Origin: Curvibacter sp.
GTDB lineage: Bacteria; Pseudomonadota; Gammaproteobacteria; Burkholderiales; Burkholderiaceae_C
Length of the DNA: 64,000 nt
Assembly: GCA_020621965.1 (NCBI GenBank)
Contig: JAHRYV010000009.1
Span: 1-64,000 of the forward strand
Direction: 5' to 3'
Shown here one piece after another: positions 25,746-46,522 of the stretch. Position 1 is the first letter of the stretch, and every line of letters starts with the position of its first letter. Position numbers and translations under genes: made by a program. The notes under the pieces were generated by a model. That model was not told the origin of the DNA and searched no databases. It was given only the letters and a program-made list of their open reading frames with translations.

Positions 25746-26381
25746 ATGAGTGGACTGTTCATCAGCTTCGAGGGCATCGACGGCGCCGGCAAGTCCACCC
25801 ACATCGAAGGCCTGGCCGAGGCCTTCCGTGCGCAAGGCCGCCGTGTCACGCTCACGCGTGAGCCCGGCGGCACACCGCTGGCCGAGAAGCTGCGCACGCT
25901 GGTGCTCAACGACGCCATGGACCCCATGACCGAGGCGCTGCTGGTCTTCGCCGCGCGGCGCGACCACCTGCAGCAGTTGATCGAACCGGCGCTGGCACGG
26001 GGTGATGTCGTGTTGTGTGACCGCTTTACCGACGCCACCTTTGCCTACCAGGGCGGTGGCCGTGGCTTCGATCTGGACATGCTGGGCTGGCTCGAGCGTC
26101 AGGTTCAGGCCTTGCCGGGGACAAATACGCTGCGACAACCCGAGCTGACGATCTGGTTCGACCTCGACCCGGCCATTGCCGCCCAGCGCCTGGCCGGCGC
26201 GCGTGTGCCCGACAAGTTCGAGGCCCAGCCGCTGGAATTCTTCCGCCGTGTGGCGGCCGGCTATGGCGCGCGCTTGGCGCAGGCGCCGCAACGCTTTGCC
26301 CGCATCGATGCCGCCCGCAGCCGCGAGGCGGTCTGGCTGGACGTGTTGGCCGCCGTGCGGCAAAAGAACTGGCTGTCATGA
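25746..26381 (+). CDS. tmk: Thymidylate kinase
   Basis: [46 protein letters not shown]. Confidence 0.96.
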
Positions 26382-27382: not shown

Positions 27383-27508
27383 GCCTGACCCTGAACCTTG
27401 CGCTCCTGCGCGCGCGCCGGTGCGCCGAACGGACGCCGCCGACGCCCTGAGCCGTGCCAGACCCTGCGCAAGGCACCGCACCAGGCCCTTTGCATTCCTC
27501 CTGCCCGC

Positions 27509-28303: not shown

Positions 28304-28563
28304 ACCCCACCTTTACGCACCATTGAGGTGCCCGGGCGGCCGCCCTATGGCCGCCGCAGCATAGCCGCGCCCACATTTGTAACCAAAACGGGGGTTCTGT
28401 TACGCAGATCGTTTCAAAATTCAAGCAGCTGTAAAAAAATGTAGATTCACTTTGTGAATTTGTTCACAGAATGCAAGATTTTCCCCACGTTGCCAGGAAC
28501 TGCGGCAACGGAATACCGAGCAAGACGGGTTCGGACAACAAGGCCTACACATGGGGAGTCGCG

Positions 28564-29430
28564 GTGAACAATGATCTGCATCAGGGCGGCATCGAGCGCA
28601 TGTATCCGCGCACGGCAGGGGCCGTGGCCGAATCGCAGGCCGCCGCATCGGTGCATGACGAGGTCGGGCCGACCCTCAAGCTGTTCGTGCGCGGCCTCGA
28701 ACGCGACGAACGCCAGCTGCTCGACGGCCTGGTCCACGTTTCCCTGCGGCGCTCCCCCCGGCTGGAAATCCTGGACGAGCGGGACGCCGGTTCAGCCGAT
28801 GTGCTGCTGATCGGCGCCACGGACCACGAGGCGGTCGCCTGGACCCAGCGGCAGGCCTGGCTGGCCGACAAGGCCGTCATCTGGATCGGTGCCGGCGAGC
28901 CGACGGCGCCGGCGCAATCCGTCATCCGGCGGCCCGTGCAGTGGTCCATCCTGCCGATGCTGCTGGCCCGTGCGCTGGAGAAAAAACCGGGCGGGGCCTG
29001 TGCCGTTTCGGGCGCCAGGGCACCGGCGCGCGCATCGGGCCTGCTGCCGTCCCGCACTTCGGCGCGCTCCGTCCTGGTAGTCGACGACAGCCTCGCCATC
29101 CGCAACCATCTGCGCTCGCTGCTGGAGGGCGAGGGCTTCGATGTGAGCTCGGTCGACACGGTGGAGTCCGCGCTCAAGGTACTGGCGCACCAGTCCTTCG
29201 CCTGCGTGCTGATGGACGTGCTGATGCCCGGCATCGATGGTTATGAAGGCTGCCGTCAGATCAAGGCACTGGCGCGCGGCGCGCGCGCGATACCGGTGGT
29301 CATGCTGACCAGCAAGACTTCACCCTTCGATCGCATCCGCGGAAAGATGGCGGGCTGCGACGCGTATCTGACCAAACCCGTCGATCCCCAGCAGCTCGGC
29401 GAGGTGCTGGCCCAGCAGCTGTTGAGCTGA
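28564..29430 (+). CDS. Response regulator with N-terminal extension (PilG-like position); GTG start likely, ATG at 28471 possible
   Basis: REC domain SVLVVDDSLAIRNHLRSLLEGEGFDVSSVD...DVLMPGIDGYEG...MLTSKTSPFD. Confidence 0.85.
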   Translation: MNNDLHQGGIERMYPRTAGAVAESQAAASVHDEVGPTLKLFVRGLERDERQLLDGLVHVSLRRSPRLEILDERDAGSADVLLIGATDHEAVAWTQRQAWLADKAVIWIGAGEPTAPAQSVIRRPVQWSILPMLLARALEKKPGGACAVSGARAPARASGLLPSRTSARSVLVVDDSLAIRNHLRSLLEGEGFDVSSVDTVESALKVLAHQSFACVLMDVLMPGIDGYEGCRQIKALARGARAIPVVMLTSKTSPFDRIRGKMAGCDAYLTKPVDPQQLGEVLAQQLLS

Positions 29431-29457
29431 ATTCGTCAAACCACAGGAGCAAACATC

Positions 29458-29820
29458 ATGACACGCACCATCCTCATCGTCGAAGACAACGCGGCCGACC
29501 GCCAGCGCCTGGAGAAGCTGCTCGGCGAGGCCGGCTATATGGTGGCCACGGCGACCAATGGCACGCAGGCGCTGGCCTCGGTCAAGCGCAGCCGGCCCGA
29601 CGCCATCCTGATGGACGTCAACATGCCGGAGATGGACGGCTTTGCCGCCACCCGCGCGCTGCAGGGCGACGCCGAAACCAAGGGCATCCCCGTGATCCTG
29701 GTCACGGCCAAGAACCAGAAGGCTGACAAGGCCTGGGGCCAGATGCTCGGCGCCAAGGGGTATGTCACCAAGCCCTTCAGCGACGAACAGCTGCTGTCGC
29801 AGGTTCTCTCGCTGCAGTGA
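29458..29820 (+). CDS. PilH-like response regulator (copy 1)
   Basis: ILIVEDNAADRQRLEKLL, DVNMPEMDGFAATR, AKNQKADKAWGQMLGAKGYVTKPF. Confidence 0.92.
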   Translation: MTRTILIVEDNAADRQRLEKLLGEAGYMVATATNGTQALASVKRSRPDAILMDVNMPEMDGFAATRALQGDAETKGIPVILVTAKNQKADKAWGQMLGAKGYVTKPFSDEQLLSQVLSLQ

Positions 29821-29861
29821 ACGGCCAGCCGCAGCCAACGCAAACCAAGGGAGAACAACTC

Positions 29862-30218
29862 ATGGGTAGAAAAGTCCTCATCGTCGACGACATCCAGGCC
29901 GATCGCAACCATCTCGAGCGCATCGTTTCCGAAGCCGGCCACCAGACCCTGCTGGCCGAGAACGGCAACATGGCCTTCGAACGCGCCAAGCGCGACCAGC
30001 CCGACCTGATCCTGATGGACGTGAACATGCCCGAGGTCGACGGCTTTGCCGCGACCCGCATGCTCAAGGCGGACGACGCCACCAAGAACATTCCGGTGGT
30101 GTTTGTCTCCGCCAAGAACCAGAAGGCCGACATGGCCTGGGGCCAGATGCTCGGGGCCAAGGGCTACATCACCAAGCCCTACAGCCGCGAGCAGATCCTC
30201 GCGCAGCTGGCCGCCTGA
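29862..30218 (+). CDS. PilH-like response regulator (copy 2)
   Basis: VLIVDDIQADRNHLERIV, DVNMPEVDGFAATR, AKNQKADMAWGQMLGAKGYITKPY. Confidence 0.92.
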   Translation: MGRKVLIVDDIQADRNHLERIVSEAGHQTLLAENGNMAFERAKRDQPDLILMDVNMPEVDGFAATRMLKADDATKNIPVVFVSAKNQKADMAWGQMLGAKGYITKPYSREQILAQLAA

Positions 30219-30229
30219 GAGGCCGGACC

Positions 30230-30844
30230 ATGCAGGAAGCCATGGACGACACGCTCACCGCCTCCGCGCACGACCTGCTGCCCCCCACCGAGGCCTTGCG
30301 CCGCGGATTCCAGTTCGCGGGCGACGACACGGCCGGCACCGCGCTGGCGGCCGCCTACGCCTCGGCCGCTACGAGTCCGGACGTGGTGAGCGACAGCGGC
30401 GGGATCCAGCAGCGGGAGGGCTTCGCCATCGGCCACCTCGGCCTGATGATGCGTTACGAGGACGGCAGCGAACTCTCCGACCTGCCGACCACCTACCGTC
30501 TGCCCAATGCCCCCGACTGGTTTACCGGGGTGGCCAACCTGCATGGTCTGCTCGTGCCGGTGTTTGATCTGGCGCGGTATCTGGGTGTCGAACACCAGCA
30601 GGGCGTCAAGCCCATGCTGCTGGTGCTCGGCCATGGGCCGGATGCGGCCGGCGTGGTCATCGACGGCCTGCCTATGCGCCTGCGCTTCGCCTCCGGCGAT
30701 CGCGCGGAGGGCGCCCCGGTGCCGGCCGCGCTGGAAGGCTGCGTGAGCCAGACCTACTGGGCGTCTGAGCGCACCTGGATGGACTTGCAGGTGCCGGCCC
30801 TGCTGAGCAAGTTGAGCGACGAACTGGCGGCCATCTGTGCATAG
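30230..30844 (+). CDS. CheW/PilI-like chemotaxis protein
   Basis: PDWFTGVANLHGLLVPVFDLARYLG CheW core. Confidence 0.85.
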   Translation: MQEAMDDTLTASAHDLLPPTEALRRGFQFAGDDTAGTALAAAYASAATSPDVVSDSGGIQQREGFAIGHLGLMMRYEDGSELSDLPTTYRLPNAPDWFTGVANLHGLLVPVFDLARYLGVEHQQGVKPMLLVLGHGPDAAGVVIDGLPMRLRFASGDRAEGAPVPAALEGCVSQTYWASERTWMDLQVPALLSKLSDELAAICA

Positions 30845-30892
30845 CGCAGCCTTGCCGGCCTCTTTGATGATTGAAACGACTGGAGTGCAGAG

Positions 30893-32689
30893 ATGAAATT
30901 GAATCTGACGATCCGAACCAAGGTGCTGGCCGGCTTCGGCCTGCTGCTGGTCCTCTCCGCGGTGTTCGCCGTGGTATCCACCTGGCAGGTGAACACGCTG
31001 CAGCGCCTGCACGCGCTGTCCGAAACCAAGTTCGCGATCATTGCCCAGGCGGAGAACTCGGTCTGGGAATTGCGGTCCGGCTTCCCGCTGTACTACGCGA
31101 GTGACAAGGACGTGAAACGGCGTGAACGCATCAAGGCCGCCAACCCACAACACATCCGCGATGTCGAGCAAGGCCTGCAGACCTACTCGGAGCTGCCGAA
31201 CCTGAGCGCGGAGGAGGCGGACAAGCTGAAGGAGACCCGGCAGTTCCTGGCCCAGTACGTGTCCAAGCAGCCGCTGCTGTTCGATCTGTTCGACGAGGGC
31301 AAGTCGGAAGAGGCCCAGGAAATCCGTCTCAAGTACACCACGCCGGGCGCGGTGGGCACCGTCAAGGGCATCACGGATCTGCGCCGGCTGGCGCAGAAGA
31401 ACAACGAAGAGAGCATTGCCAGTACGCACGCCGCGGCCAATCGCTGGATGGCCCTGACCGGCTTGCTGCTGGCAGCGCTGGGCATCGGTATCGCCATGTA
31501 CGTGTACCGCGGCATCAGCCGCCCGCTGCAGGAGCTGCAGCACACCGTGGAGCGGGTGCGCGCCGGCGAGGAGCTGAAGGAAACCGAAGGCGTGACGACA
31601 GAGGACGAGTTGGGTGGCATCTGGCGCACGGTGCACAGCCTGCTGAGCGAGCGGCGCGACGCGCAGTTGAGAGCCGAGGCCGAGAACGAAAGCCTGAACC
31701 AGTCGGTGATCTCGATTCTGGAATCGGTGCACCAGCTCTCCAAACGTGACCTGACCGTGAAGGCACCGGTGACGCAGGACGTGATCGGCACCGTGTCCGA
31801 CTCCATCAATTCGCTGACCGCCGAGACGTCCAGGGTGCTGCATGGCGTGAGCCAGATTGCCGGCCACGTGGCCCAGGCCTCGGACAAGGTGCGCAGCCAG
31901 GCCGAGATGGTGTCCAAGACGGCGGAAGACGAGCGCAGCAGCGTGGGCAAGATGATCGAGTCACTCACCAATGCCACGCAGACCATGAACCAGGTCGCCG
32001 CGCTGGCCGAGCAGTCCAGCAACTCGGCCTCCAAGGCCACGGCCGTGACCGACACCGCGCTGGAGACGGTGAACGGTACCGTCAAGGGCATGGAGTCGAT
32101 CCGCGAGACGATTGCCGAAACGGAAAAGCGCATCAAGCGCCTGGGTGAGCGTTCGCAGGAAATTTCCGGCATCGTGAACCTGATCAACACCATCTCGGAA
32201 CGCACCCACGTGCTGGCGCTCAACGCCTCCATGCAGGCGGCGGTGGCCGGTGAAGCGGGGCGCGGTTTCGCGGTGGTGGCCGAGGAAGTGCAGCGACTGG
32301 CCGAAAGCTCGCGCACGGCCACCCAGCAGATCAGCACGCTGGTGAACAACATCCAGCTCGAAACCAACGAGACCATCAGCACGGTGAACCGCACCATCGG
32401 TCAGGTGGTGCAGGGCTCCGAGCAGGCGCAGAAGGCCGGCGAACAGATGCGCATGACGCAGCAGATCACCGGCGAACTGGTGGCGCAGGTCAAGCGCATT
32501 GCCGAGGTGTCCGAGCAGCAGCGCGAGATGTCGGCCAACCTGCTGACCTCGGTGCAGCACATCGGCCAGAGCACGGAGCGCACCGCCGATCAGATCACGG
32601 CCCAGAACCGCGAAACCGAGGGCCTGCTGCAGTCGGCGCGCCGCCTGGTGGAGTCGGTCAACGTGTTCAAGCTGCCGCAGATGGCCTGA
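30893..32689 (+). CDS. Methyl-accepting chemotaxis protein, PilJ-like
   Basis: TM-sensor-TM-HAMP; [47 protein letters not shown]. Confidence 0.93.
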
Positions 32690-32734
32690 CGCAAGCACAC
32701 AAGCCGGCAATCCAATCCACAGGAGGCTCCGCCC

Positions 32735-35599
32735 GTGAAGCTAAACGACCTGATCGATGCGCTGGCCGCCGAGATCGAACTCGCCCGCCCGCAACTCGAC
32801 CGCGACCTGGACGAGCTGGCCGCGCTGGACACGGGCGACCAGGCCTTTCTGGTGGCGCTGGATGACTACAGCAGCCTGGCCCAGCGCATGGGCGAGGCCG
32901 CGGAGATGGCCGGCTTTCCCGGTCTGCAGGGGGTCTGCAACCATGTGCTGGAAAACACCCTGGCGCTGCCGGGGCTGGCCGTGGCCGAGCGGGGTGCGCT
33001 GATCAAGTTCCTGCGCGACTGGCCGCCGCTGATCATCTACTATCTGCGCAACATCTCCGATCCGACCACCGCGGCCGGGCTGGTGGATCATCTGGTGCAC
33101 GCTCCCTATGCGCTGGGCGAGGAGCAGGCGCTGAAGATCATGCACATGCTGGGGGCCATGCCCCTGCAGGTGCAGCAACCCGGTGCGGGCGATGGCCAGA
33201 GGGCGCGCGCGGTGCTGGCCACTCCCGAGGATGTGACCCTGGTCATTCCCCCCGACGTCGACACCAGGCTGCTGGAGGGCTTCTTGCACGAGGCGCCGGA
33301 CCAGGCCCGCTATCTGGTTGAGCTGTCGCGCAACATGGCCAGCGGGCAGGGCGACAGTTCGGACCTGGTGGCGGCACGTCGCATGGCGCATACGCTCAAG
33401 GGGTCGGGCTCCATCATCGGCCTGCGTGGCCTGGCGTCCCTGGGACATCACTTCGAGGACATCCTCGATCATTTCGAGGCCGAGGGTGGGGTGGTCGCCA
33501 AGCCCGCAGCCGACACCCTGCTCGATGCCGCCTACTGCCTGGAACAGATGGTCGCTTACGTCACCGGTGGCGATGACTATCCGCAGCAGGCGCAGCAGGT
33601 GCTGCAAAGAGTGCTCGACCTGGCCAACCGCATCGACCGCGGCGAAGTGATCGACCAGCCCCTGGCGCGCAGCACCCCGGTCGCGCTGGTCGACGCCGAG
33701 GCGGCGCAGGACCTGCTGCCCGTGGCGCCGGCCCCGACTCCGGTGTCGGCCCTGCCGCCGGAGGCACAGTTGCAGCCCGCCCGCCATGAGACTGCCTTGC
33801 GCGTCAGCGTCAAGCAGGTCGACGAACTGTTCCGCGTCTCGGGCGAGGTCTCGGTCAACAGCGCCGTACTGGAGGCCCGGCTCAAGAGCCTGACCGATCA
33901 GACCCGCGAGTTGATCAGCCAGAACCTGCGGGTGCAGAAACGCCTGTTCGAACTCGAAACCCTGGTCGACGTGCGGGCCCTGACCATGATGCGCGCGCGC
34001 ACCCGCCGCAGCGACGAGGCCGCCTTCGACCCGCTGGAGATGGACCAGTACAGCGAGCTGCACAGCACGACGCATGCCTTGATGGAAGAGTCTGCGGATG
34101 CCCGGGCGCTGGCGTTCCGGCTGGAAGAGGAAGTCTCCCTGCTGACGGGCGTGCAGACCCTGCAGCAGCGCCTGTCCAAGGATCTGCAGCACCTGGTCAT
34201 CGGCACACGCATGAACCAGGCCGGCATGCTGGAGCCGCGCCTGCAGCGCAACGTGCGCGCCACCTGCCAGGCCACCGGCAAGCAGGCGACCCTGGTGATC
34301 CAGGGCGGCGAGGCGCTGATCGACGGCGACATGCTCAGCCGCCTGGCCGAGCCGCTGCTGCACCTGCTGCGCAACGCCGTGGACCACGGCATCGAGCTGC
34401 CGCAGGAGCGGCTCGCCGCGGGCAAGGATCCGGTCGGTCGCATCGAGCTGAGTTATGCCCGTCAGGGGCAACAGGTGGTGCTGCGGTGCAGTGATGACGG
34501 CCGTGGTCTCGACTTGCCGGCGATCCACCGCCGCGCCCTGGCGCGCGGCTTGGTCAGTCACGAGCAGGTCTTGACGGACGACGAGCTCATGCGCCTGATC
34601 CTGCTGCCCGGGTTCTCGACACGCGACGTGGTGAGCGAAGTGTCGGGCCGGGGCGTGGGGATGGACGTGGTGCGGGACTGGGTCAGCGCCATCAACGGCA
34701 CCCTGCACATCGCCAGCCGGGTAGGGCAGGGCTGCACCATCGAGCTGCGCTTCGCCGCCTCGCTCTCCACCCAGCAGTCGCTGGTGGTGGAAGTGGAGGA
34801 TCAGCGGTTTGCGCTGCCCTCGCTGCATATCGAACAGGCCGTCCCGCGCGGGATCGGTCGCTTCGAGCGTGTCGGCGACAAGCTGGTCTATCACCATGGC
34901 AAGCGGGTGCTGGGCGCCAGACTCCTGGCCGAACTGACCGGCCTGCCCGTCGACAGCGACAAACCGCTCGACGACTACGATGCCGTGATCCTGCGGGTCG
35001 ACCACAAGCTCCATGTGCTGGGGGTGGACAAGCTCATCGACTCCCGCGATCTGCTGGTCAAGAACCCGGGGCGTTATGCCCGCCACATCCGCGGTGTCGC
35101 CGGTCTGTCCATCCTCGGCGACGGCAGCGTGGCCGTGAACCTGGACATGGCCCAGTTGCTGGCGCAGGAGGGCGCACAACGACAGGTGCAGCGTATCCAG
35201 ACCGCTGCGGCCGCGCCGGCGCCGGCCAGAGAAATGCCGGGCGTGCTGATCGTCGACGATGCGCTGTCCGTGCGTTCCTCGCTGATGCAGCTGGTGCAGG
35301 ATGCGGGCTTTCGCGTGCAGGCGGCGCGTGACGGCATCGACGCCATTGACACACTGGGGTCATTTGACGCCGATATCGTATTGACTGATCTGGAGATGCC
35401 CAACATGAATGGCATAGAACTGACCAGCCATATCCGCAGCCGCGATGACCTGAAATCGGTGCCGGTGATCATGATCACCTCGCGCTCGCAGGAGAAACAC
35501 CGCCGCCTGGCCGAACAGGCCGGGGTCAGCCGCTACATCACCAAGCCCTACAACGAGGGCGAGCTTCTGCAGACCATCCGCCAGGCGCTGACCGCCTGA
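32735..35599 (+). CDS. Hybrid CheA/ChpA-like histidine kinase with Hpt and C-terminal REC
   Basis: AHTLKGSGSIIGLRGL (Hpt), LRNAVDHGIELPQERLAAGK, SGRGVGMDVV, CheW-like region, C-terminal VLIVDDALSVRSSL REC. Confidence 0.93.
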   Translation: MKLNDLIDALAAEIELARPQLDRDLDELAALDTGDQAFLVALDDYSSLAQRMGEAAEMAGFPGLQGVCNHVLENTLALPGLAVAERGALIKFLRDWPPLIIYYLRNISDPTTAAGLVDHLVHAPYALGEEQALKIMHMLGAMPLQVQQPGAGDGQRARAVLATPEDVTLVIPPDVDTRLLEGFLHEAPDQARYLVELSRNMASGQGDSSDLVAARRMAHTLKGSGSIIGLRGLASLGHHFEDILDHFEAEGGVVAKPAADTLLDAAYCLEQMVAYVTGGDDYPQQAQQVLQRVLDLANRIDRGEVIDQPLARSTPVALVDAEAAQDLLPVAPAPTPVSALPPEAQLQPARHETALRVSVKQVDELFRVSGEVSVNSAVLEARLKSLTDQTRELISQNLRVQKRLFELETLVDVRALTMMRARTRRSDEAAFDPLEMDQYSELHSTTHALMEESADARALAFRLEEEVSLLTGVQTLQQRLSKDLQHLVIGTRMNQAGMLEPRLQRNVRATCQATGKQATLVIQGGEALIDGDMLSRLAEPLLHLLRNAVDHGIELPQERLAAGKDPVGRIELSYARQGQQVVLRCSDDGRGLDLPAIHRRALARGLVSHEQVLTDDELMRLILLPGFSTRDVVSEVSGRGVGMDVVRDWVSAINGTLHIASRVGQGCTIELRFAASLSTQQSLVVEVEDQRFALPSLHIEQAVPRGIGRFERVGDKLVYHHGKRVLGARLLAELTGLPVDSDKPLDDYDAVILRVDHKLHVLGVDKLIDSRDLLVKNPGRYARHIRGVAGLSILGDGSVAVNLDMAQLLAQEGAQRQVQRIQTAAAAPAPAREMPGVLIVDDALSVRSSLMQLVQDAGFRVQAARDGIDAIDTLGSFDADIVLTDLEMPNMNGIELTSHIRSRDDLKSVPVIMITSRSQEKHRRLAEQAGVSRYITKPYNEGELLQTIRQALTA

Positions 35600-35629
35600 A
35601 CCACCACGCCAGGGCAGGGCCGATCGACC

Positions 35630-36082
35630 ATGAGCCAGACCAGAACAGTGAAGATGCGGGGCGACTTCGTGGTGTTGCGCGCCGATGCCCTGCGCCTGCT
35701 GCTGCCCCAGCGCGACGTCGCGGGCACCGAGTACATCGAGCAGGCCCCTGTGGCCACCGACCAGGCGGGGCGCTTCGTGCTCCATGACGACAGCGGGACG
35801 CCGCGGCCCCTGTGGGCGCTCTCGGAGCAGCTGCGTCCGCTGGAGCGTTTCCCGGCCGACCGCTTTGTGCTGACCCGGCTCAGTGGCGCGGGCCCGGCGG
35901 TCTCGCTGGCCTGGAACGAGGTCCGGGTGCTGATCGACACGGAACTCGAGTTTCACGCACTGCCGGCGGTCATGCAAGGCGCGGGTGGCCTCGTCGATGC
36001 CTACGTCGAGCTCGACGGCGAGCTGGCTTTCTGCACTTCCGCCCGGCAGGTCCTGCCCGAAGCGCTGGCGCAACCGGATTGA
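35630..36082 (+). CDS. Hypothetical chemosensory-cluster protein, possibly divergent CheW-like
   Basis: Position in the operon; LRADALRLLLPQRDVAGTEYIEQ resembles the start of CheW domains. Confidence 0.6.
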   Translation: MSQTRTVKMRGDFVVLRADALRLLLPQRDVAGTEYIEQAPVATDQAGRFVLHDDSGTPRPLWALSEQLRPLERFPADRFVLTRLSGAGPAVSLAWNEVRVLIDTELEFHALPAVMQGAGGLVDAYVELDGELAFCTSARQVLPEALAQPD

Positions 36083-36085
36083 CGC

Positions 36086-36616
36086 ATGGACATGCAGCCG
36101 CCCGCACTGCTTGAAGATCACGGCCATCCCGGCGCGCCCGCGCTCGCAACGCCTACGGCCCTGGCCTGCGTGCTGGAGTACGCCGCCGGCGCACAGATCG
36201 CCCTTCCCATCCATGCCGGCGTCGAACTGGTCGAGCAGCCGCGCGTCGTCCCGGTGCCGGGCATGCCGCACTTCTGCCTGGGCCTGCTGGCCTGGCAGGG
36301 CAGGCAGCTGCCGCTGATCGATTTCCAGGTCTATCTGCAGCAGCCCGGGACCGCCCCGGCAACACGGGCCTGCAGCCATGTGCTGGTGGTGGCCTATCAG
36401 ACCGCATACGGACAGCCTATCGAATACGGTGCGTTGTGCGCACCGTTTCTGATCCGCATGATCGAGGTCGCCGATAACCAACAGTGCCCGTTGCCGGCAG
36501 GGCAGCCGCGCTGGACGGACATTGCCATCTCTTGTTTAATGAACCAGGGGCAGGCTGTCCCGGTACTTGACCTCGCACGCGTTTTTGGCAGATCGGTTTC
36601 ATCCGGCACTAATTAA
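36086..36616 (+). CDS. CheW domain-containing protein
   Basis: FCLGLLAWQGRQLPLIDFQVYL CheW core; close spacing. Confidence 0.75.
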   Translation: MDMQPPALLEDHGHPGAPALATPTALACVLEYAAGAQIALPIHAGVELVEQPRVVPVPGMPHFCLGLLAWQGRQLPLIDFQVYLQQPGTAPATRACSHVLVVAYQTAYGQPIEYGALCAPFLIRMIEVADNQQCPLPAGQPRWTDIAISCLMNQGQAVPVLDLARVFGRSVSSGTN

Positions 36617-36626
36617 AGGAGGGCGT

Positions 36627-37541
36627 ATGCTGGCACAAAATTTTCTCGATACACCGAAGCGCATCCCGAAGCCGCGGGACTTCGGGCTCACCGCCTTGAT
36701 CGACAACGGCGTTCCCACACGCTACTTCAAGGATGTGGTGGAGAGCGATGCCGACTTGATCGATGTCGTCAAGTTCGGCTGGTGCACGGCCATGGTGACC
36801 AGTGAACTGGAGACGAAGATCCAGTGCCTGATCGACAACAACGTGATGTTCTATTTCGGCGGCACCCTGTTCGAGAAAGCCCTGGCCCAGGGCAAGCTGG
36901 ACGCCTTCTACCGCTTCCTCAAACACTACAAGTGCGAGATCGTCGAGATCTCCAACGGCACGCTGCCGCTGTCCGCCCAGGACAAGGCCCAGCACATCGC
37001 GGATTTCGCCGACGAGTTTTATGTCCTGAGCGAAGTCGGCAAGAAGGACATCGACGAAGCCGACGACATGCCGATCTCCCAGTGGATCGCCGAAATCCAC
37101 TCTGACCTGGCTGCCGGCGCGAAACGGGTCATCCTGGAAGCGCGGGAATCGGGCAAGAGCGGCATCTGCGATGCCCAGGGCCGCCTGCGCACCGACCTGG
37201 TGGAGAGCATCTCCAATGCCCGCTTCAACTCCTCCGATGCCATCTGGGAGGCGCCCACCAAGTCCTTGCAGGCCAAGCTGATCGCCGCCCTCGGGCCCAA
37301 TGTCAATCTGGGCAATATCGCTTTTGGCGATGTGATCGGCCTGGAAACCCTGCGCCTGGGCATACGCTCCGACACCTTCAATCTGTACGACGGCCCGGAC
37401 GGCCGCTTTGTCGAACCCCAGGTCCAGGAGAGCCGGTACAGCACGGGCGTCGAGCGCCGCCGCAAGGAGCTGGAAGCCGCCGCCAGGAATGGATGGCCTA
37501 TACCCGCGCCGCTGATGCCCGGCATGAGGCGGCTCAAGTAA
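36627..37541 (+). CDS. comA: Phosphosulfolactate synthase (ComA family)
   Basis: GLTALIDNGVP, VVKFGWCTAMV, GGTLFEKALAQGK, VEISNGTLPLS, VLSEVGKK, ILEARESGKSG, NLGNIAFGDVIGLETLRLGIRSDT match the ComA family pattern. Confidence 0.9.
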   Translation: MLAQNFLDTPKRIPKPRDFGLTALIDNGVPTRYFKDVVESDADLIDVVKFGWCTAMVTSELETKIQCLIDNNVMFYFGGTLFEKALAQGKLDAFYRFLKHYKCEIVEISNGTLPLSAQDKAQHIADFADEFYVLSEVGKKDIDEADDMPISQWIAEIHSDLAAGAKRVILEARESGKSGICDAQGRLRTDLVESISNARFNSSDAIWEAPTKSLQAKLIAALGPNVNLGNIAFGDVIGLETLRLGIRSDTFNLYDGPDGRFVEPQVQESRYSTGVERRRKELEAAARNGWPIPAPLMPGMRRLK

Positions 37542-37543
37542 GC

Positions 37544-38251
37544 GTGAAGATCCGCATCCTCCAGGGAACCGACCGGAGCTATCCCGCCGCCGACATCAAC
37601 GTCGTCATCGACGTGATCCGGGCCTTCACCGTGGCCCACGTCGCCTTTGCGCGCGGGGTACGGGAGATCCTGCTGGTCAACACGGTGGAGGAGGCGCTGG
37701 CACTGAAAAGCCAGCGCCCCGACTATCTGTTGGCCGGGGAGATCAAGGGTCTGGGCATACCCGGCTTCGACCTCGACAACTCGCCCCACCGGGTCGCCCA
37801 GGCCGAACTGGCCGGGCGCACCCTGGTGCAGAAGACCACCAACGGGGTCAAGGCCACCCTGGCCGCGCTGGCCGCCCGCCATGTGTTCGTGACCGGTTAT
37901 TCCAATGCCGCCAACACCGCCCGGCACGTACGTCAGCTGTTGACCGGAGCCGGCTTGCAGACCGTCAACGTGATTGCCTCACACGGCCAGGACGACGACG
38001 ATCTGGCCTGCGCCGAATACATCCGCGATCAGATCCTGGACCTGCAGCAGCTGCGGCCGCAGGAGGTCGTCGAACGCATCCGCCATTCCCGACCTGCGGC
38101 CAAGTTTCTGGTCCAGCCGCCGGGCGAATTCGAACCCCGGGATCTCGACTATTGCACCCAAGTGCGACCCTGCGGCTTCGTCATGGCGGTCGATCGCGCG
38201 AGTGCCATTCCGGCGATACGAAAATACACGATAGTGGAAGCCTCGCCGTAA
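37544..38251 (+). CDS. comB: 2-phosphosulfolactate phosphatase (ComB family)
   Basis: VVIDVIRAFTVAHVAFARG, LLAGEIKG, FDLDNSPHRV, LVQKTTNGVKATLAA, VTGYSNAANT; GTG start. Confidence 0.9.
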   Translation: MKIRILQGTDRSYPAADINVVIDVIRAFTVAHVAFARGVREILLVNTVEEALALKSQRPDYLLAGEIKGLGIPGFDLDNSPHRVAQAELAGRTLVQKTTNGVKATLAALAARHVFVTGYSNAANTARHVRQLLTGAGLQTVNVIASHGQDDDDLACAEYIRDQILDLQQLRPQEVVERIRHSRPAAKFLVQPPGEFEPRDLDYCTQVRPCGFVMAVDRASAIPAIRKYTIVEASP

Positions 38252-38366
38252 CGGCGTGAGCCTCATCCGTTCTTTAACAATCCGCCTCCATTGCGCCCGT
38301 CGCTGACGACAACAGCGGCGGGCCACCGCCTGCGACTACGACCGCTTCGAGAGCCGCCTGTACCTG

Positions 38367-40667
38367 GTGGCCGGCAACGGCATCGCCACCAGCTACAGCT
38401 ACGACCCGGCCAACCGCCGCCTGGCCCGGCTGCAGTCGGGCCTGAGCAGAACCCCCGGCGAAGTGGCCGGCAGCCTGCAAGACCTGGCCTACGGCTATGA
38501 CAGCGTGGGCAACATCCTGAGCCTGGCCGACAGCGCCCCCATCCCGAAAAGCAACGAATTCGGCGGGCAGAGCACGCAGAACTTCCACTACGACGACCTG
38601 TACCGCCTGATCAAGGCCCAGGGTGTCTACACCACCGCGCGCGAAGTGCAGAACTACGACTTCGCGATGCAGTTTGATGCCATCCACAACATCACCAACA
38701 AGTACCAACAGCACACCGTGGCCAAGACCGGCGGTAGCTCGCGGATCGAAACCGCCACCAGCTACGACTGGGCCTACGCCTACCGGCAACGCAGCCACAC
38801 CCAGCCGCACGCCCCAACAACGATCGGCAACCGCACCTTCGACTACGACGAAAACGGCAACCAGACCGGCTGGCAAAACCTGGACAACGGCACCCGAAGA
38901 ACTATCGTCTGGGACGAAGACAACAGAATCAGAGAGGTGCAAGACCCCAAACACGGCGCCGCCTTCAGCTACGACGACCGCGGCGACAGAAAGCTCAAGA
39001 AGAGCCAGTACGGCGAGACCGCCTACATCAACCAGTTCTTCACGGTCAGGAACGGGGCCATCGCCTCTACCCACGTCTATGCCGGCACCAGCAGGATCGT
39101 CACCAAGCTGGGCGCGGGCACGCCGGTGGGCAAGGTGACGAACAACACCAAGGGCACCGGCAACCTGAGCACGGCAGACGCCAGCCTGACGGAGTATGTG
39201 GCGCCGGATGGGACGGGCACGACGACGACGACCGCCACGACGGCAACGATAGCGGCCACCACCACTCTGAGCAAAGGCCAGGGACAGGGCAACAAGCCGA
39301 CCGGAAACCTCGCCGCGCTGGGGAGAGGGCAGGGAGAGGGGCAAGCCAACCCGGCCAGCATGGGCAGCTTCCCCGGCCAGGGCATGGCCCACCGTAGCGA
39401 GCGCGCCAACGAAGTCGCCCGCAACAGCGAGAAGAACAAACACCTTAACGGCGGCGATCCGGGCGGGGCGCAGGGCGCTGTCAACAGCAACGCCGGCGGC
39501 CATGAAAGCAATGCCGGCGGCAACGGCGGCGGCAACGCCTACGCCTGGGGCCGCAGCGAGCAGGGCCGGGGCAATGCCGGCGGCAACCCGGACCATGCCG
39601 GCGGTGGTCAGGGTGCCGGTGCGGGCAGTGGCGTTGGCAGTGGTGGAGGCTCCGGCAACGGTGCCGGCAACACCAGCGGCGGCGGCACTGCCGGCAGCGG
39701 CGAAGGCCGCGAGTTCATCTACTTCTACCACCCGGACCACCTGGGCTCCACCGCCTACGTCACCGACGAGAAAGCCCAGCGCTACGAACACCTGGCCTAC
39801 TTCCCCTTTGGCGAGACCTGGGTGCAGGAGAGCACGGCCACCTGGCGGGTTCCGTACCAGTACACCGCCAAGGAGATGGACTCGGAGACGGGGCTGTATT
39901 ACTTCGGGGCGCGGTATTACGATCCGAGGACGTCGGTTTGGGCTAGTGCGGATCCGATCCTGAGCAGATATTTGCCGAGCACCCCTCATGAAGAAATGGG
40001 CTTGGTAAAGCTGCGGATGCCCGCAGTCCAAAACCCATTACCGAAATTCAACTTGCCAGGGATGGGCGGGGTTTTTAATCCGGCGAATTTGGCGCTATTT
40101 AGCTATGCGCATCAAAACCCGTTGCGGTATGTTGATCCAGATGGGCGGCAAGTGCTTAATGGTGAGACAGAGGCACCTGTATTTGAGAAAAAAGGTGAGG
40201 TGCGAGGCGCAGAGTGGAAGGTCGCTGGACAGGTTACGGTCGGAAATAATAGCGGAGGGCCGTATGTATCCAAACCAAAAGTAGAGGCTAGTATTAGTTT
40301 TCAGAAAAAAGGGCAACCGTATACTCCCAATACAGGTGCAGGGGAGCCGCCAAGAAATCAAGGAGACCCAGAGAAGCAAGCGAAAGATGCTGCAACTGAT
40401 TTCGTGCTAGCCGCCGCTAGTGCTGTAGCGGGAACGGATGTGGGTCAAGCAATAAAAGATAAGACAGGAAAAGATGTCAAACCTCAGTCTGACCCATCTG
40501 TTGGGTTGCCTCAGATTGTGACCCCCATACTGTTTGAGGCCGGTGTTAGTTTGTGGCTGCAGAATGGAATTCAGGTGGGTCCTGTCAATAATAATTTCTG
40601 GGCCGACGGTCTATATAGGAATAATGGTCCGACTACGTTTGGGTTAATGCTTTTTGTGAGATTTTGA
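38367..40667 (+). CDS. RHS/YD-repeat protein, N-terminally truncated, with variable C-terminal tip (frame open from about 38307)
   Basis: YD repeats (YSYDPANRRLARL, FDYDENGNQTGW), core FYHPDHLGSTAYVTD...YGARYYDP-like (YYFGARYYDPRTSVWASADP), NPLRYVDPDGR, then a non-Rhs tip. Confidence 0.88.
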   Translation: MAGNGIATSYSYDPANRRLARLQSGLSRTPGEVAGSLQDLAYGYDSVGNILSLADSAPIPKSNEFGGQSTQNFHYDDLYRLIKAQGVYTTAREVQNYDFAMQFDAIHNITNKYQQHTVAKTGGSSRIETATSYDWAYAYRQRSHTQPHAPTTIGNRTFDYDENGNQTGWQNLDNGTRRTIVWDEDNRIREVQDPKHGAAFSYDDRGDRKLKKSQYGETAYINQFFTVRNGAIASTHVYAGTSRIVTKLGAGTPVGKVTNNTKGTGNLSTADASLTEYVAPDGTGTTTTTATTATIAATTTLSKGQGQGNKPTGNLAALGRGQGEGQANPASMGSFPGQGMAHRSERANEVARNSEKNKHLNGGDPGGAQGAVNSNAGGHESNAGGNGGGNAYAWGRSEQGRGNAGGNPDHAGGGQGAGAGSGVGSGGGSGNGAGNTSGGGTAGSGEGREFIYFYHPDHLGSTAYVTDEKAQRYEHLAYFPFGETWVQESTATWRVPYQYTAKEMDSETGLYYFGARYYDPRTSVWASADPILSRYLPSTPHEEMGLVKLRMPAVQNPLPKFNLPGMGGVFNPANLALFSYAHQNPLRYVDPDGRQVLNGETEAPVFEKKGEVRGAEWKVAGQVTVGNNSGGPYVSKPKVEASISFQKKGQPYTPNTGAGEPPRNQGDPEKQAKDAATDFVLAAASAVAGTDVGQAIKDKTGKDVKPQSDPSVGLPQIVTPILFEAGVSLWLQNGIQVGPVNNNFWADGLYRNNGPTTFGLMLFVRF

Positions 40668-40668
40668 A

Positions 40669-42291
40669 GTGAACTTCGAATATTTGTTTGAGCGGTATTG
40701 GCCATTCGTTGGACGCATACTGCATCTCTGCCTGCGGCTCACGCTTGCGTTTACAGTGAGTATGGCTTTTATCGCGCATGCAGGACTGCAAGAAGATGTT
40801 GGGGCGGCATCGAATGCATTTGATCGAGACGATCACGAGCAAGCCATCAAACTATACAGTCGCATACTAGAGTACCCAGATTTATCGATTGAGTTGAGGG
40901 ATGCTGCTTATTTCAATCGGGCCATTATGTACCGGACGGCAGGCTCATATGAGTTAGCCATTGATGATTTCACCAAACTCATCCGTGAAGAAAAATATCT
41001 TTATTTGTCATATCTACATCGAGGCATGACATATTTATTCAAGGGTAACAATCAAGCAGCGCTCAAGGATTTGGATGCAGCCATTCGTCTCAACAGGACT
41101 TCCGAGGCTTTGTACAGTAGGGGGATGATTTACCGTTATTCGGATGACGCGAAAAAAGCTCTAATCGATCTTGAAGAAGCACTTCAGGTTGACCCGAATA
41201 ATCACATCGCTTTCTATGAGAGGGGGGTTGCATATGCGATGAGTGGTCAATATGAAAAAGCCATTGCCGACTTTCATCACGCAATCAAATACTTTCCAAA
41301 CGAGGCGAAAATGTATTCTTCTCGTGGGCTTGCATATCTGCAAAACATGCAAGCAGATCGGGCCTTGACCGATTTTGATGTGGCCATTCGATTGGAGCCG
41401 AATAATGGAGAGATATATCGCAGGCGCGGGATGGCTCTGGCTGACTTGGGGCGTGTCAAAGAGGCACTGGGTCCATATGCGATGGCCCGCCGGCTTAACC
41501 CAGATAACAGCGATGTTTACGCTAGTGAAGGTAAAGCATACCTCAGGCTGTTGGAAGTCGATAAAGCACTTGATGATTTTAATACAGCACTGCGCCTCAA
41601 CTCGCTCAATGAGCTTGCATATTTGAACCGTGGTCTGGCCTATATGCATAAAGAGGAATTCAAGAAGGCTCTAGATGATTTGGATAGGGTGTTGCACTTG
41701 GATCCGCAGTCGGCCGATGCATTGGGGTATAGAGCTTTGGCGCAAATTTATCTTGGGAATTTTGAATTGGCTATGGCTGATCTTGAGACTGCGGTCTCGT
41801 TGAAGCCCAAAGACATAGTCAATCTTCGAATTCTTGGTTTTCTATATTTCGGGCTGGGGCAATATCAGAAAGCCGAGGACGTGTTTGAGCGTCAGATCAG
41901 AATCGCCAACCGCATGGAGGCGAGTTTTTGGCGCCACCTGTCGCGAGTGCGTATGGGCAAGGCAACTGCCACAGAACTTGAAGTGGATGTTGCCAAGATG
42001 GATATTTCTGGATGGCCGAGGCCTTTGATCAATTTTTATCTTGGGAAAGAGAGTCTTGCTGAGCTGTTGGTTAAGGCAAAACATGAAAGCAAAGAGATCG
42101 AACGCTTTCATCTCTGTCAGGTCGCTTTGCTCCGAGGAGAGCTCCGGATTGGTGTGGGCGACACAAAGGACGCAAGCACCTTGTTTAAGGAGGCTGTGAA
42201 AACCTGCCCGTACGCCTACCCGGAACGAGCATTCGCAGAAATCGAATTGAGGAAGGCGGGCGCTGTCCCGAGTATCGGAAAGGGAAACTGA
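40669..42291 (+). CDS. Tetratricopeptide (TPR) repeat protein with N-terminal hydrophobic/signal segment
   Basis: Many TPR units (e.g. AFYERGVAYAMSGQYEKAIADFHHAIKYFP); GTG start 1 nt after the rhs stop. Confidence 0.88.
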   Translation: MNFEYLFERYWPFVGRILHLCLRLTLAFTVSMAFIAHAGLQEDVGAASNAFDRDDHEQAIKLYSRILEYPDLSIELRDAAYFNRAIMYRTAGSYELAIDDFTKLIREEKYLYLSYLHRGMTYLFKGNNQAALKDLDAAIRLNRTSEALYSRGMIYRYSDDAKKALIDLEEALQVDPNNHIAFYERGVAYAMSGQYEKAIADFHHAIKYFPNEAKMYSSRGLAYLQNMQADRALTDFDVAIRLEPNNGEIYRRRGMALADLGRVKEALGPYAMARRLNPDNSDVYASEGKAYLRLLEVDKALDDFNTALRLNSLNELAYLNRGLAYMHKEEFKKALDDLDRVLHLDPQSADALGYRALAQIYLGNFELAMADLETAVSLKPKDIVNLRILGFLYFGLGQYQKAEDVFERQIRIANRMEASFWRHLSRVRMGKATATELEVDVAKMDISGWPRPLINFYLGKESLAELLVKAKHESKEIERFHLCQVALLRGELRIGVGDTKDASTLFKEAVKTCPYAYPERAFAEIELRKAGAVPSIGKGN

Positions 42292-42354
42292 CATTCCCCT
42301 GAGTTGTCCCGTTGTCCCGTCCAAACTGTCCACGCACTGATTGCGTCTGCCTGC

Positions 42355-42372
42355 CGGTCACTTTTTTGACCG
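42355..42372. repeat. Inverted repeat CGGTCA-cttttt-TGACCG (hairpin)
   Basis: Perfect 6-bp stem in the TPR-transposase intergenic region. Confidence 0.4.
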
Positions 42373-42545
42373 TCAGTGCTGCTGGCGCACTGATTTTTTG
42401 CCGTTGATTGCCTGCTTCTTCAGCAGTCGCTCGCCGGCTTTTCCGTCGTTCCCCCGGTTTTCCACCTCCCGCGCGCCGCTACCCCCGGCCAACCCTCGTT
42501 GACCGTGGACAGTGATGTTCTGCTTCCTTCCTCTCCCGCCGCCTG

Positions 42546-43460
42546 TCACCTTCGCAGGTAATACCCCGTCAACATCCCACCCCAGCCCTCGAACCAGATC
42601 GCCTGCTTCGGAGCCCTGGCATACGGGTCGATCCCGCTCCAGGCCTCGGCCGGCGTCAGCCCGCCCAGGTTCTGATGCGGCCGCACGTGGTTGTACCAAG
42701 TGCGGAACTCGGCCATCAACCGGGACAGCGCAGCCTGCGAGTCCACCTCCAGTTGATCCAGCTTGTGCTTGAGCGTGCCGAACAGCCGCTCGATGCGCCC
42801 ATTCATCCACGGGCAGCCTGGCACGGTGAACTGTTGGCGGATGCCGGCCCAGGCGCAGACCACCCGGAACCTCCAACTCCGGAACACCGAGTCGTTGTCC
42901 GTGCGTATCGCTCTGGGCTTGCCGAACCGCCCGATGACCAGAAACAGATGTCCCAGCAGCGTCCAGGCGTTTCTGTGCTGCAACACCTCCAATGCCAGCA
43001 AGGCCCGCGTGCCATGGTCCTCGATGCCAAGAATCGAGTGAATCTCCCCAGACATGTCCCCCTTGCCCGTCATGTCCAGCGCCCAGATGTGGTTGCTCGG
43101 CACGACGCGTGGCGGTCGCTGCTTGATCAACCGGCGCAGCACCTCCACCTCATGGCGATGTCGGCGCACCGTGTAAGCCACATAGGACTTGCTCACCGTC
43201 ATCTTGGTGCGGGCGGCATGCAGCCGATTGAACAGCCTCTCGATGGCGCGACAACCCTTGTTTGTCAACGCCGCCAGCCGCAACACCTCACGCTTGACCC
43301 ACTCGGGTTTGCGCTGGCCACGGCAGGCACTTGGCGTACGAAGACGTGCACGAAACCCGCGCGGCGCTACAGGCCGCAGACCACCCAGCCCGCATGTGCC
43401 GCGGTAAAGCAACACCAGCCCACGGAGCAGCCAGGCAAAAACGAACAGCACGACTCCCAT
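42546..43460 (-). mobile_element. DDE (rve integrase-core) transposase
   Basis: IWALDMTG...RTDNDSVF...WMNGRIERLFGTLKHKLDQL...RTWYNHVRPHQNLGGLTPAEAW. Confidence 0.88.
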
Positions 43461-43564
43461 GGCCCGAGCATGCCAGGGGCGTCAGGGTGACGGGCGCTAT
43501 TTCCTGCGCGCTATATCTGCCAGGGAGTGAAGAGGATCGGGTAGGGAGAGAAATCACGCACGTT

Positions 43565-43676
43565 GGCTTGCGCTGAATACATCCGCGATCAGATCCTGGA
43601 CCTGCAGCAGTTGCGGCCGCAGGATGTCGTCGAACTCATCCGCCATTCGAGCGCAATTCCAACGATACGCAAGTAC
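43565..43676 (+). pseudogene. Degraded duplicate of the comB 3' end
   Basis: 43565-43648 matches comB 38005-38088 with 5 mismatches in 84 bp by eye; then about 110 bp missing, then AIPTIRKY similar to comB AIPAIRKY. Confidence 0.8.
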
Positions 43677-43829
43677 GTGGCGCAGTCGGGCGCTGTGGTT
43701 GTGGGTTCAGTTCTGGACGGCCCCCATAGAAAGTTGACTTGCAACTTTAGAAACAAGTAAAAAGACATTGATTTAGCTCGATTTTTAAAAAACAGAGTTT
43801 TGAGGAGACCTTGGGGATGGTTTGTTTAA

Positions 43830-43867
43830 CTTCATACGATGTATATTATGTTAACTAACGTATGAAG
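43830..43867. repeat. Inverted repeat CTTCATACG-N20-CGTATGAAG
   Basis: Perfect 9-bp arms downstream of the cyclase gene stop (43879, minus strand). Confidence 0.5.
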
Positions 43868-43878
43868 ACAGCGACGGC

Positions 43879-44784
43879 TTAGCTCACCTTGAAACGAACG
43901 GTCGGAACGCTGGAATCCGAGAACGGCGCCCCCAGGCCGATTTCCCCTTCGCCATACAGCACACACTCCTCGCGCCGCAGCAGCACCTCGGAGCGTGAGC
44001 CCGAGAAACGGATCCAGGTTCCATAGCTGCTGACATCCACCAGCATGATGCGGCCATTGCGCCATTCCAGCCGGACGTGCGTGCGGGACACGCGCGGGTC
44101 GGCGACGATGAACTCGCAGTGACGGATGCGCCCCACATGGATGGGGAGATCGAAGCACATATAGGTGCGGGTCTGGTCCAGGAAACTCAGCTCGACGACC
44201 TGCCCCAGGGCGTCGCCCTTGGCGTCCTGACCGTAGTTGCCCTGCATGGTGATGAAGTCGCTGGACTCGTCCTCGTGCCATTCGACCTGATGCACCGGAC
44301 AAGGTTCCACCCGCCCCCGTACATTGATCTGGCCGAGCGGTCGATAGCGGATGCCACCGGCCCCCCGGGTGTAGTCGAGGTCGGGGCTGCTGACCCAGAT
44401 CTCGTGGGGGCCGGCCAGGTCGGACAGGCGGGAGGCCACGTTGACGGCATCACCGTAGCAGTCCCCGTTGACGATCTCCACCTCGCCCGTTGCCACGCCC
44501 ACCCGGATCGGCAGGTGTTCCGCCGGGGGTTGTTGCAGGAGGTTGGCCTGGTGCTGTCGTTGCAGTTCGACCACCGCGTCAACGGCGACAGCGGCTTTCG
44601 GAAAGACGATCAGCACACCGTCGCCCAGGGTCTTGATGACCTTGCCCCCCCTGGCCTGCATCAGCTTGCAGATCCAGTGCGTCAGATGCGTCACGGTCCG
44701 GGTGGCCCTGAGATTCCCCAGCGTCTCGAAAACGGAAGTGCTGCCGGCCAGGTCTGTGAAAACAACGGTGGTGTGGACACCCAT
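43879..44784 (-). CDS. Class III adenylate/guanylate cyclase with C-terminal FHA domain
   Basis: VVFTDLAGSTSVFE, KTLGDGVLIVF, GDCYGDAVNVASRLSDLA; FHA: IHVGRIRHCEFIVADPRVSRTHVRLEWRNG. Confidence 0.93.
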   Translation of the reverse strand: MGVHTTVVFTDLAGSTSVFETLGNLRATRTVTHLTHWICKLMQARGGKVIKTLGDGVLIVFPKAAVAVDAVVELQRQHQANLLQQPPAEHLPIRVGVATGEVEIVNGDCYGDAVNVASRLSDLAGPHEIWVSSPDLDYTRGAGGIRYRPLGQINVRGRVEPCPVHQVEWHEDESSDFITMQGNYGQDAKGDALGQVVELSFLDQTRTYMCFDLPIHVGRIRHCEFIVADPRVSRTHVRLEWRNGRIMLVDVSSYGTWIRFSGSRSEVLLRREECVLYGEGEIGLGAPFSDSSVPTVRFKVS

Positions 44785-45136
44785 GCGGTAGCTTCAGTTG
44801 GTGACGGTTGTGTACGAGACGAGTTTAGGGCATAGCCGCAGGCTTGAATACCAAGGGCGCGCCCTCGGCGGCGGACCTTCGGCACTTGACTCAGCGGTCG
44901 GAGGCACACCTCGTTCCGGTCGCTGCCGGGTTGATGCGCCGCCCCGCGCCGCTGATCTACCCCAGGACGACCGGATCAGGATACGTATTTGAGCATTGCT
45001 TGATGTATCCGGGGTAAGCGATTGAATTTCTTGTTGTTTTCCACGCATTCCTCGTGGATTACCCTATTGCCGAACTGGCCCGGGCCGATTAACCTCATGC
45101 CTGTTGTTGGGAAGTCTTATCCATAAAGACCAAAAC

Positions 45137-45481
45137 ATGAACCGATTGGCTAGCCAATTCATCAGCAGCATGCAAGGGCTGTTGGGTCTGTCCGTTCCGG
45201 ACGAAGGCCGCCATGCCTGCCGTATCGAAGACATCCGCCAGGCCATGCTGGACTCCCTGGGTGACGAGGGCTGCACTTGCTACCCCCACATCGAACGCCG
45301 CGTGCTGTTCGCACCGGACCTGCAGGGCCTCTGGTATTTGCGCAGCGACATCATGGTGGTCCTCTCTTCCTTGCAAGGCGAGATGATCGCCAGCCAGCGC
45401 ATCCGGCAGATCACCCGCATGTTTGAGGGCCTCCTGCCCGGCAGCATGGTCAGCCGCCCGGCCGCTGCCGGCCGCCGCTGA
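45137..45481 (+). CDS. Hypothetical protein (115 codons)
   Basis: ORF with ATG and host-like codon composition; no family recognised. Confidence 0.55.
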   Translation: MNRLASQFISSMQGLLGLSVPDEGRHACRIEDIRQAMLDSLGDEGCTCYPHIERRVLFAPDLQGLWYLRSDIMVVLSSLQGEMIASQRIRQITRMFEGLLPGSMVSRPAAAGRR

Positions 45482-45498
45482 GAACACCAGCGTTCGGG

Positions 45499-45516
45499 CC
45501 GGGCGCGCCCGGCCAC
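45499..45516. terminator. Palindrome GGCCGGGCGCGCCCGGCC between convergent genes
   Basis: Perfect palindrome in the 42-bp convergent gap; no clear T-tract. Confidence 0.35.
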
Positions 45517-45523
45517 ACGCACC

Positions 45524-46522
45524 TCAATCCCCCCAGACCAGCAGCACGTCGCGGCCCTGTACCTGCAGGTCACACCGCTTGCCCACCGGCAGCAGCACCT
45601 TGGTCGGCACGTGACCGAAGGGCAGATTGGTCAGCACCGGCACCTTGAGCCGGCTGCGCAGCCAGTTCAGCACGGACTGCAGCTGGAAGCCTTTGTCATG
45701 CGGCACCAGCCGGTACTCGGTGAACTGCCCGAGCACGATGGCCTTTTGCCGGGCCAGCACCCCGGCGTGCAGGAGCTGGGTCAGCATGCGTTCGATGCGG
45801 TACGGGTGCTCGGCCACGTCCTCCAGGAACAGGATGCCGTCCTGCACGGCCGGGAAATACGGCGTCCCCAGCAGCGCGCACAGCACGGCCAGGTTGCCGC
45901 CCCAGAGCGGGCTGTCCTGCACGGTGAAGTCCGCCGCCTCGCCCAGGCGCTTGGCGTGGAAGGCGCCGGCCTGCGCGATATCCTCCGCCCGCTCCTTGTG
46001 CTGGCGCCAGCCCGTGCCCTCCCCCTGGCCCAGGATCATGTCCTCGAAACAGGCTTCCATGATCTCGTCCGGACCACCTTTGCCCCCTGCCCCATGACCA
46101 TCGGCCGCATCGGCCTCGTCGCTGACGCCAAAGCCCTCGCACAGCGAGGGGCCGGCCCAGGTCGCGGCCCCGCTTTGCGCCAGCACCGCCAACTGGAAGG
46201 CCGTGAAATCGCTCAGGCCCACGAACTGGGTGCCGTTGCCGATGGCTTTCGCCACCGCCTTGTACTTGATGCCGTCGAGGATGCGCGTCAGGCCGTAGCC
46301 GCCGCGCGAAATCATGGCCACGTCGGCGCCACTGGCCGCGGCCCGGTGGATGGCCGCCAGCCGCATGCTGTCGTCCCCGGCAAAACGCTGGAAGGACGCC
46401 AGCGCCGCCTCGTCCACCTCGACCTCATGGCCCAGGGCCTGCAGGCGTTTGACGCCACGGCGAAAGGCGGCCTTGTCGCGCACGGCGCCGGAGGGGGAAT
46501 AGATGTAGATGTGTTTTTTCAT
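45524..46522 (-). CDS. LD-carboxypeptidase (peptidase S66, LdcA-like)
   Basis: IYSPSGAV, AMISRGGYGLTRILDGI, GLSDFTAFQLAVLAQSG, LFLEDVAEHPYRIERML. Confidence 0.92.
   Translation of the reverse strand: MKKHIYIYSPSGAVRDKAAFRRGVKRLQALGHEVEVDEAALASFQRFAGDDSMRLAAIHRAAASGADVAMISRGGYGLTRILDGIKYKAVAKAIGNGTQFVGLSDFTAFQLAVLAQSGAATWAGPSLCEGFGVSDEADAADGHGAGGKGGPDEIMEACFEDMILGQGEGTGWRQHKERAEDIAQAGAFHAKRLGEAADFTVQDSPLWGGNLAVLCALLGTPYFPAVQDGILFLEDVAEHPYRIERMLTQLLHAGVLARQKAIVLGQFTEYRLVPHDKGFQLQSVLNWLRSRLKVPVLTNLPFGHVPTKVLLPVGKRCDLQVQGRDVLLVWGD

Follow-up and report, generated by a model that had tools for sequence, protein, structure and literature searches.

The window analysed here is a stretch of 64,000 nucleotides from a contig of a Curvibacter sp., and it contains a block of ten genes on one strand in which the genes of a chemosensory array are followed by comA and comB (Table 1). 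The gaps between consecutive genes are, in order, 27, 41, 11, 48, 45, 30, 3, 10 and 2 nt, and the last two of these (cheW to comA and comA to comB) agree with the spacing of about 10 nt and 2 nt given in the initial annotation of this DNA. The span which that annotation assigned to the comAB pair, 36086 to 38251, ends where comB ends, but its start is that of the second CheW gene rather than that of comA. No terminator-like sites were found on the coding strand of the block, and the ten genes, comA and comB included, are probably co-transcribed. A strong Shine-Dalgarno sequence, AAAGGAGG, lies upstream of comA, and the reading frames of both comA and comB are intact. Further in-frame starts are open at 28471 for the first response regulator and, for comB, at an ATG at 37493, which lies within comA.

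Table 1. Genes of the block and neighbouring features, by position in the window.
Feature	Position	Strand	Match or remark
Response regulator; N-terminal ~165 aa without known family, C-terminal REC	28564-29430	+	Pfam REC, 91 bits
PilG-like single-domain response regulator	29458-29820	+	Pfam REC, 105 bits
PilH-like single-domain response regulator (ORF open from 29817)	29862-30218	+	Pfam REC, 92 bits
PilI-like CheW adaptor	30230-30844	+	Pfam CheW, 45 bits
Chemoreceptor; 4HB_MCP sensor (residues ~1-190), HAMP region, MCP signalling domain	30893-32689	+	Pfam MCPsignal, 4HB_MCP_1
Short ChpA-like kinase, 954 aa; one recognised Hpt, HATPase, CheW, C-terminal REC	32735-35599	+	Pfam
150-aa protein, family not recognised	35630-36082	+	Conserved in block
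Second CheW adaptor, final chemosensory gene	36086-36616	+	Pfam CheW, 48 bits
comA, phosphosulfolactate synthase, 304 aa, ATG start at 36627, C-terminal extension of ~50 aa	36627-37541	+	PF02679; 1u83 match
comB, 2-phosphosulfolactate phosphatase, 235 aa, GTG start	37544-38251	+	PF04029; 2z0j match
Insertion downstream of comB	38367-43286		Seen in the window only; weak Rhs-repeat match
TPR repeats within insertion	40669-42291		Strong match
rve integrase within insertion	42546-43286	-	
Class III cyclase catalytic domain with FHA domain	43879-44694	-	Right-hand neighbour of the site, also in block-less genomes

The enzymes encoded by comA and comB

The initial annotation described the two terminal products as clear homologs of phosphosulfolactate synthase and 2-phosphosulfolactate phosphatase, and profile comparisons agree with it. 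ComA scores 267 bits against the Pfam ComA profile PF02679 (cut-off 25.2) and covers positions 2-243 of its 243. It matches the Bacillus subtilis protein 1u83 with an E value of 1e-78 and 51% identity over 247 residues and is 42% identical to 1qwg of Methanocaldococcus jannaschii, and is therefore closer to the Bacillus enzyme. K140 of ComA aligns with K137 of the M. jannaschii enzyme, a catalytic lysine. The motifs KFGW, GTLFE, RESG and EAP, which are positions common to the B. subtilis and M. jannaschii enzymes, are also retained. Against the NCBIfam equivalog for archaeal ComA, TIGR03849, the protein reaches 228.8 bits, under the cut-off of 280, and by these comparisons ComA is a bacterial-type member of the family.

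ComB scores 130 bits against PF04029 (Pfam 2-ph_phosp, cut-off 26.4), a match which covers only positions 12-167 of the 226 in the profile, and the C-terminal third of the protein departs from the Pfam model. The match of ComB to 2z0j has an E value of 3e-21, and an alignment of ComB with related proteins and with 2z0j and 1vr0, both of solved structure, shows that it retains every position invariant in this set. ComB falls under the cut-offs of the NCBIfam equivalogs (PRK14100, TIGR00298 and others), the best score being 101.9 against a cut-off of 332, and on TIGR00298 it scores 73.5 against a cut-off of 175. Loss of active-site residues had been raised initially as a point that would speak against sulfolactate formation, and alignments show that the family-conserved positions are retained in both ComA and ComB.

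Phosphoenolpyruvate and sulfite are converted to sulfolactate in the first two steps of coenzyme M synthesis (PMC5695019). In the host of the block, ComA would combine sulfite with phosphoenolpyruvate to give (R)-phosphosulfolactate, from which ComB would remove the phosphate to give (R)-sulfolactate, and sulfolactate is the best prediction for the product. The initial annotation saw no ComC, ComD or ComE partners in the window, and none of the three is encoded in the block. A coenzyme M pathway was considered and rejected, and coenzyme M is an unlikely product, because no gene of the ComC family (PF02615) was found in the window's genome (86% complete); none was found either in G009, another genome that carries the block. 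No sulfolactate exporter or consumer was found linked to the block.

The sensory array and its distribution

Judged from Pfam matches, the array has the gene kit of the Pil-Chp and Flm (Tfp) systems, with a ChpA-type kinase (Hpt, HATPase, CheW and REC), PilG-, PilH- and PilI-like proteins and an MCP encoded in one cluster. The PilG-like regulator is 82-85% identical in the four relatives and the PilH-like regulator 84-87% identical in relatives, and the response regulator gene that opens the block is present in all five block-bearing genomes. Pfam reported no PilJ-type N-terminal sensor, the P. aeruginosa type, in the receptor, and identified 4HB_MCP_1 instead. For the 150-aa protein there was no Pfam match and the predicted structure model was of poor quality; it is possibly a divergent adaptor. 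Similar kits control twitching in Pseudomonas aeruginosa and biofilm formation in Comamonas testosteroni, where Flm, a member of the Tfp class, acts via SoxR (PMC6391922, PMC8880074). By analogy, surface behaviour would be the likeliest output of the array.

The genus also possesses a separate long ChpA-like kinase, with open frames of roughly 1750-2100 aa, to which the short ChpA is about 30-35% identical. The chemosensory operon noted initially in this region is a second, short-ChpA paralogue and not the main long-ChpA system. The window's genome has another short-ChpA operon on contig C51, the kinase of which is 62% identical and which lacks comAB; the receptor of this sister operon (locus L119, G000 contig C51, 12000-30500) has a different sensor domain. 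In a further sister operon without comAB (L120, G040), a gene for an SBP_bac_3 periplasmic solute-binding protein lies at 5909-6574, an insertion which suggests that the sensory inputs of sister operons are variable.

Twenty-six genomes of the genus (Curvibacter/Hylemonella type, Comamonadaceae) were compared. Genes for comA, comB, the terminal cheW (as a strong match) and the short chpA (at >80% identity) occur in exactly the same five of them, which include Curvibacter sp. PAE-UM, a Hylemonella MAG and Burkholderiales MAGs; wherever comAB is present so is the block, and the block always comes with genes for comA and comB. Since the arrangement is present in five genomes, a chance juxtaposition on one contig was ruled out, and the lack of conservation that the initial annotation had named as a counter-indication is not seen, as comAB adjoins the chemosensory genes in every genus member with the block. 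The gene immediately 3' of cheW is comA in all five holders; in the window, G009 and G015, comB comes next. In G006 a contig break falls within comA, and the remainder of comB is on a different contig. In the MAG G013 a gene for a Tn3-like transposase follows comA, and comB is split over two contigs (L010 10524-13519 and L187 1-805), one of which has only its first codons; the 5' end of comB appears to be interrupted by a Tn3-like transposon, unless the assembly itself is mixed or faulty.

In G009 and G015 the block is flanked directly by tatD and the cyclase-FHA gene, while in the window the Rhs/IS insertion sits between comB and the cyclase-FHA gene. The empty site measures 174 nt from tatD to the cyclase gene in G012 and 306 nt in G023. 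The genome G018 of a close relative, a single contig estimated as 99% complete, lacks both the chemosensory half and comAB; at its tatD-cyclase site are two pilus-type ATPases, one PilT-like and one PilB/MshE-like (L164 9747-13285). The block is also absent from G017, where an assembly gap may explain the absence, given a completeness of 83% and a contig that stops at tatD. Beside the cyclase-FHA gene there is a conserved AT-rich stretch (around ATACGATGTATATTATGT) at both occupied and empty sites, located at about 8150-8200 in L011, at about 11430-11470 in L012, and at the empty sites L165 and L168. Adenylate cyclase is a known output of Pil-Chp in P. aeruginosa.

On a species tree of the genus built on five genes, at least three changes of block state are needed to account for the five holders, and a single clade of holders is rejected (AU test, p=0.0017). 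Because the holders do not form one clade, there has been more than one gain or loss of the block, each time as a whole. The species tree is blind to the difference between gain and loss, but the identical site speaks for a single gain with several losses. In all three independent contrasts the chemosensory set changes jointly with comAB, a number with which significance is out of reach (sign test, p=0.25), and one of the three is G017. Values of dN/dS are 0.11-0.18 for comA and 0.16-0.18 for comB, within the spread seen for the sensory genes of the block (0.12-0.39), so that both genes are constrained and under purifying selection.

Cargo or component of the array

When about 85,000 species genomes were scanned for proteins closely related to this ComA, six loci emerged, four of them within the genus. 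The other two (L021 and L022) belong to other betaproteobacteria and are free-standing comA-comB pairs, whose neighbours are unrelated and mutually different, and they are the closest outside relatives, with ComA about 62-71% and ComB 55-57% identical. From searches at the levels of order, family and class, 69 ComA loci were scanned for chemosensory genes, many spanning only 1.5 kb per side, some overlapping and about 20 spanning 10-20 kb, and among these only that of the block holder G006 has chemosensory neighbours, which rules out a general linkage of ComA with chemotaxis. In four genomes of other genera that have a short-ChpA operon (kinase 62-67% identical), comAB does not adjoin the operon, and none of the four came up as ComA-positive in the family search. 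The linkage of ComA and ComB with chemosensory genes that had been noted at the outset therefore stands for five members of the genus but does not extend to sister operons or to the other comA loci scanned. Two ComA loci of genome G572 (L092 and L124) contain a 488-aa ORF with ComA plus a ComB-like stretch inside, a possible ComA-ComB fusion. Plasmid-borne ComA homologues belong to the same family, occur in other gene contexts and are all less than 42% identical; that of Xanthobacter autotrophicus Py2, a case of bacterial coenzyme M, is 38% identical. Carriage by a mobile element was rejected on these plasmid identities and on the absence of any tRNA in 26000-46000 and of any integrase within the block.

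What is seen directly is that comA and comB are intact, closely spaced on one strand with the array genes, conserved and under purifying selection, that the block comes and goes as a whole, and that the sensor domain is specific to comAB-bearing operons. On balance it is probable that the block is a second Pil-Chp/Flm-like array with a co-expressed sulfolactate-making tail, and that sulfolactate is accumulated or released in a surface or biofilm programme of the array. Through co-expression, the levels of ComA and ComB would be scaled to the sensory array, and the sulfolactate formed in this programme, which the array would control, would not be converted to coenzyme M. The array may regulate sulfolactate, which would make the connection between signalling and sulfolactate a functional one, and the output would be a surface or biofilm behaviour, as in the analogous systems.

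The main rival, and a serious one, is that comAB has nothing to do with the array beyond being on its transcript. A free-standing betaproteobacterial comAB would have landed behind the operon in the common ancestor and would be kept for its own use, in sulfite disposal, as a source of a compatible solute, or for storing sulfur or carbon, unconnected to sensing. The free-standing pairs in L021 and L022 are consistent with such an origin, as is the lack of chemosensory neighbours at all scanned ComA loci beyond the five. What follows the last cheW in sister operons differs from one to the next, and in some no gene follows, and because this position varies among operons lacking comAB, the tail of the operon looks like a variable cargo position with comAB as the cargo in one genus. 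Sister operons without comAB, both in the same genome and in other genera, also indicate that comAB is dispensable for such signalling. Moreover, the five blocks represent one ancestral arrangement, and joint inheritance is therefore no proof of joint function. Against hitchhiking are the findings that comAB and the block are never apart in the 26 genomes and that the sensor domain of the receptor is specific to operons with comAB, and we consider this explanation possible but rather less likely than a tail that serves the array.

The sensor half of the receptor is 77-80% identical within operons having comAB and 19-27% identical between operons with and without it, whereas the signalling half is still 75-79% identical between the two kinds. 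The sensor thus differs along with comAB, an association that is correlation only because the comAB-bearing operons form a single lineage. The predicted model of the sensor (mean pLDDT 82) has as its best fold match the ligand-binding domain of MCP2201, which binds malate and citrate (PMC10735184, PMC12112095). This raises another explanation, in which the receptor encoded in the operon binds sulfolactate, so that the module both makes and reads the signal. Sulfolactate is malate with a sulfonate in place of one carboxylate, and its resemblance to the ligand of a malate sensor makes the idea attractive, as does the conservation of the sensor domain only together with comAB. The Foldseek E value is only 1e-3, however, and four-helix sensors are common. 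A search of the sensor sequence against the PDB gave no matches, the malate-pocket pattern of MCP2201, R-x2-Y-x3-R, was not found in the receptor, and a route for sulfolactate export was not identified. A make-and-sense loop is accordingly given only a slim chance, and the chance is just as slim that an organosulfonate signal steers surface behaviour, with a dedicated receptor that reads sulfolactate or its competition with malate.

It is very unlikely that the enzymes have changed their chemistry, acting on related substrates or with ComA alone being useful, and form a product other than sulfolactate, as the scores of ComB far under the equivalog cut-offs and of ComA under the archaeal one, the divergent C-terminal third of ComB, the apparent interruption of comB in G013 and the ~50-aa extension of ComA might suggest, given the 51% identity of ComA to the B. 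subtilis enzyme, the retention of family-conserved positions in ComA and of every family-invariant position in ComB, and the continued pairing of comA and comB in free-standing relatives.

Comparison with known systems

We know of few sulfolactate makers described beyond spores and methanogens, and a heritable unit of sulfolactate synthesis and sensory array would offer a place to ask what cells use sulfolactate for. Array operons that contain a biosynthetic pathway would also be unusual. At least one holder, Curvibacter sp. PAE-UM, is listed as a strain and not as a MAG, which may open the idea to testing. In keeping with the initial statement that no described system of this kind was known to its author, a literature search, mostly confined to papers available without subscription, found none that joins ComA or sulfolactate with chemosensory operons.

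The methanogen pathway of ComA, ComB, ComC and ComDE has its first two steps in common with the block (PMC5695019) but includes ComC, the family of which was not found in the window's genome or in G009. The yitCD genes of B. subtilis share with the block a ComA (1u83) that is 51% identical, and sulfolactate makes up ~5% of the dry weight of B. subtilis spores, with yitCD inferred to be involved (PMC517825). The yitCD genes are expressed in the mother cell late in sporulation and have not been described with chemosensory genes, and the host of the window is a betaproteobacterium. With Flm of C. testosteroni and Pil-Chp of P. aeruginosa, the block shares clustered genes for ChpA, PilG, PilH, PilI and a receptor, but its kinase is short (954 aa), the sensor of its receptor is of the 4HB type, and it has as extras a response regulator, the 150-aa protein, a second CheW and comAB. 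Both halves of the block are of kinds already known, and what appears to be new is their union as a heritable module.
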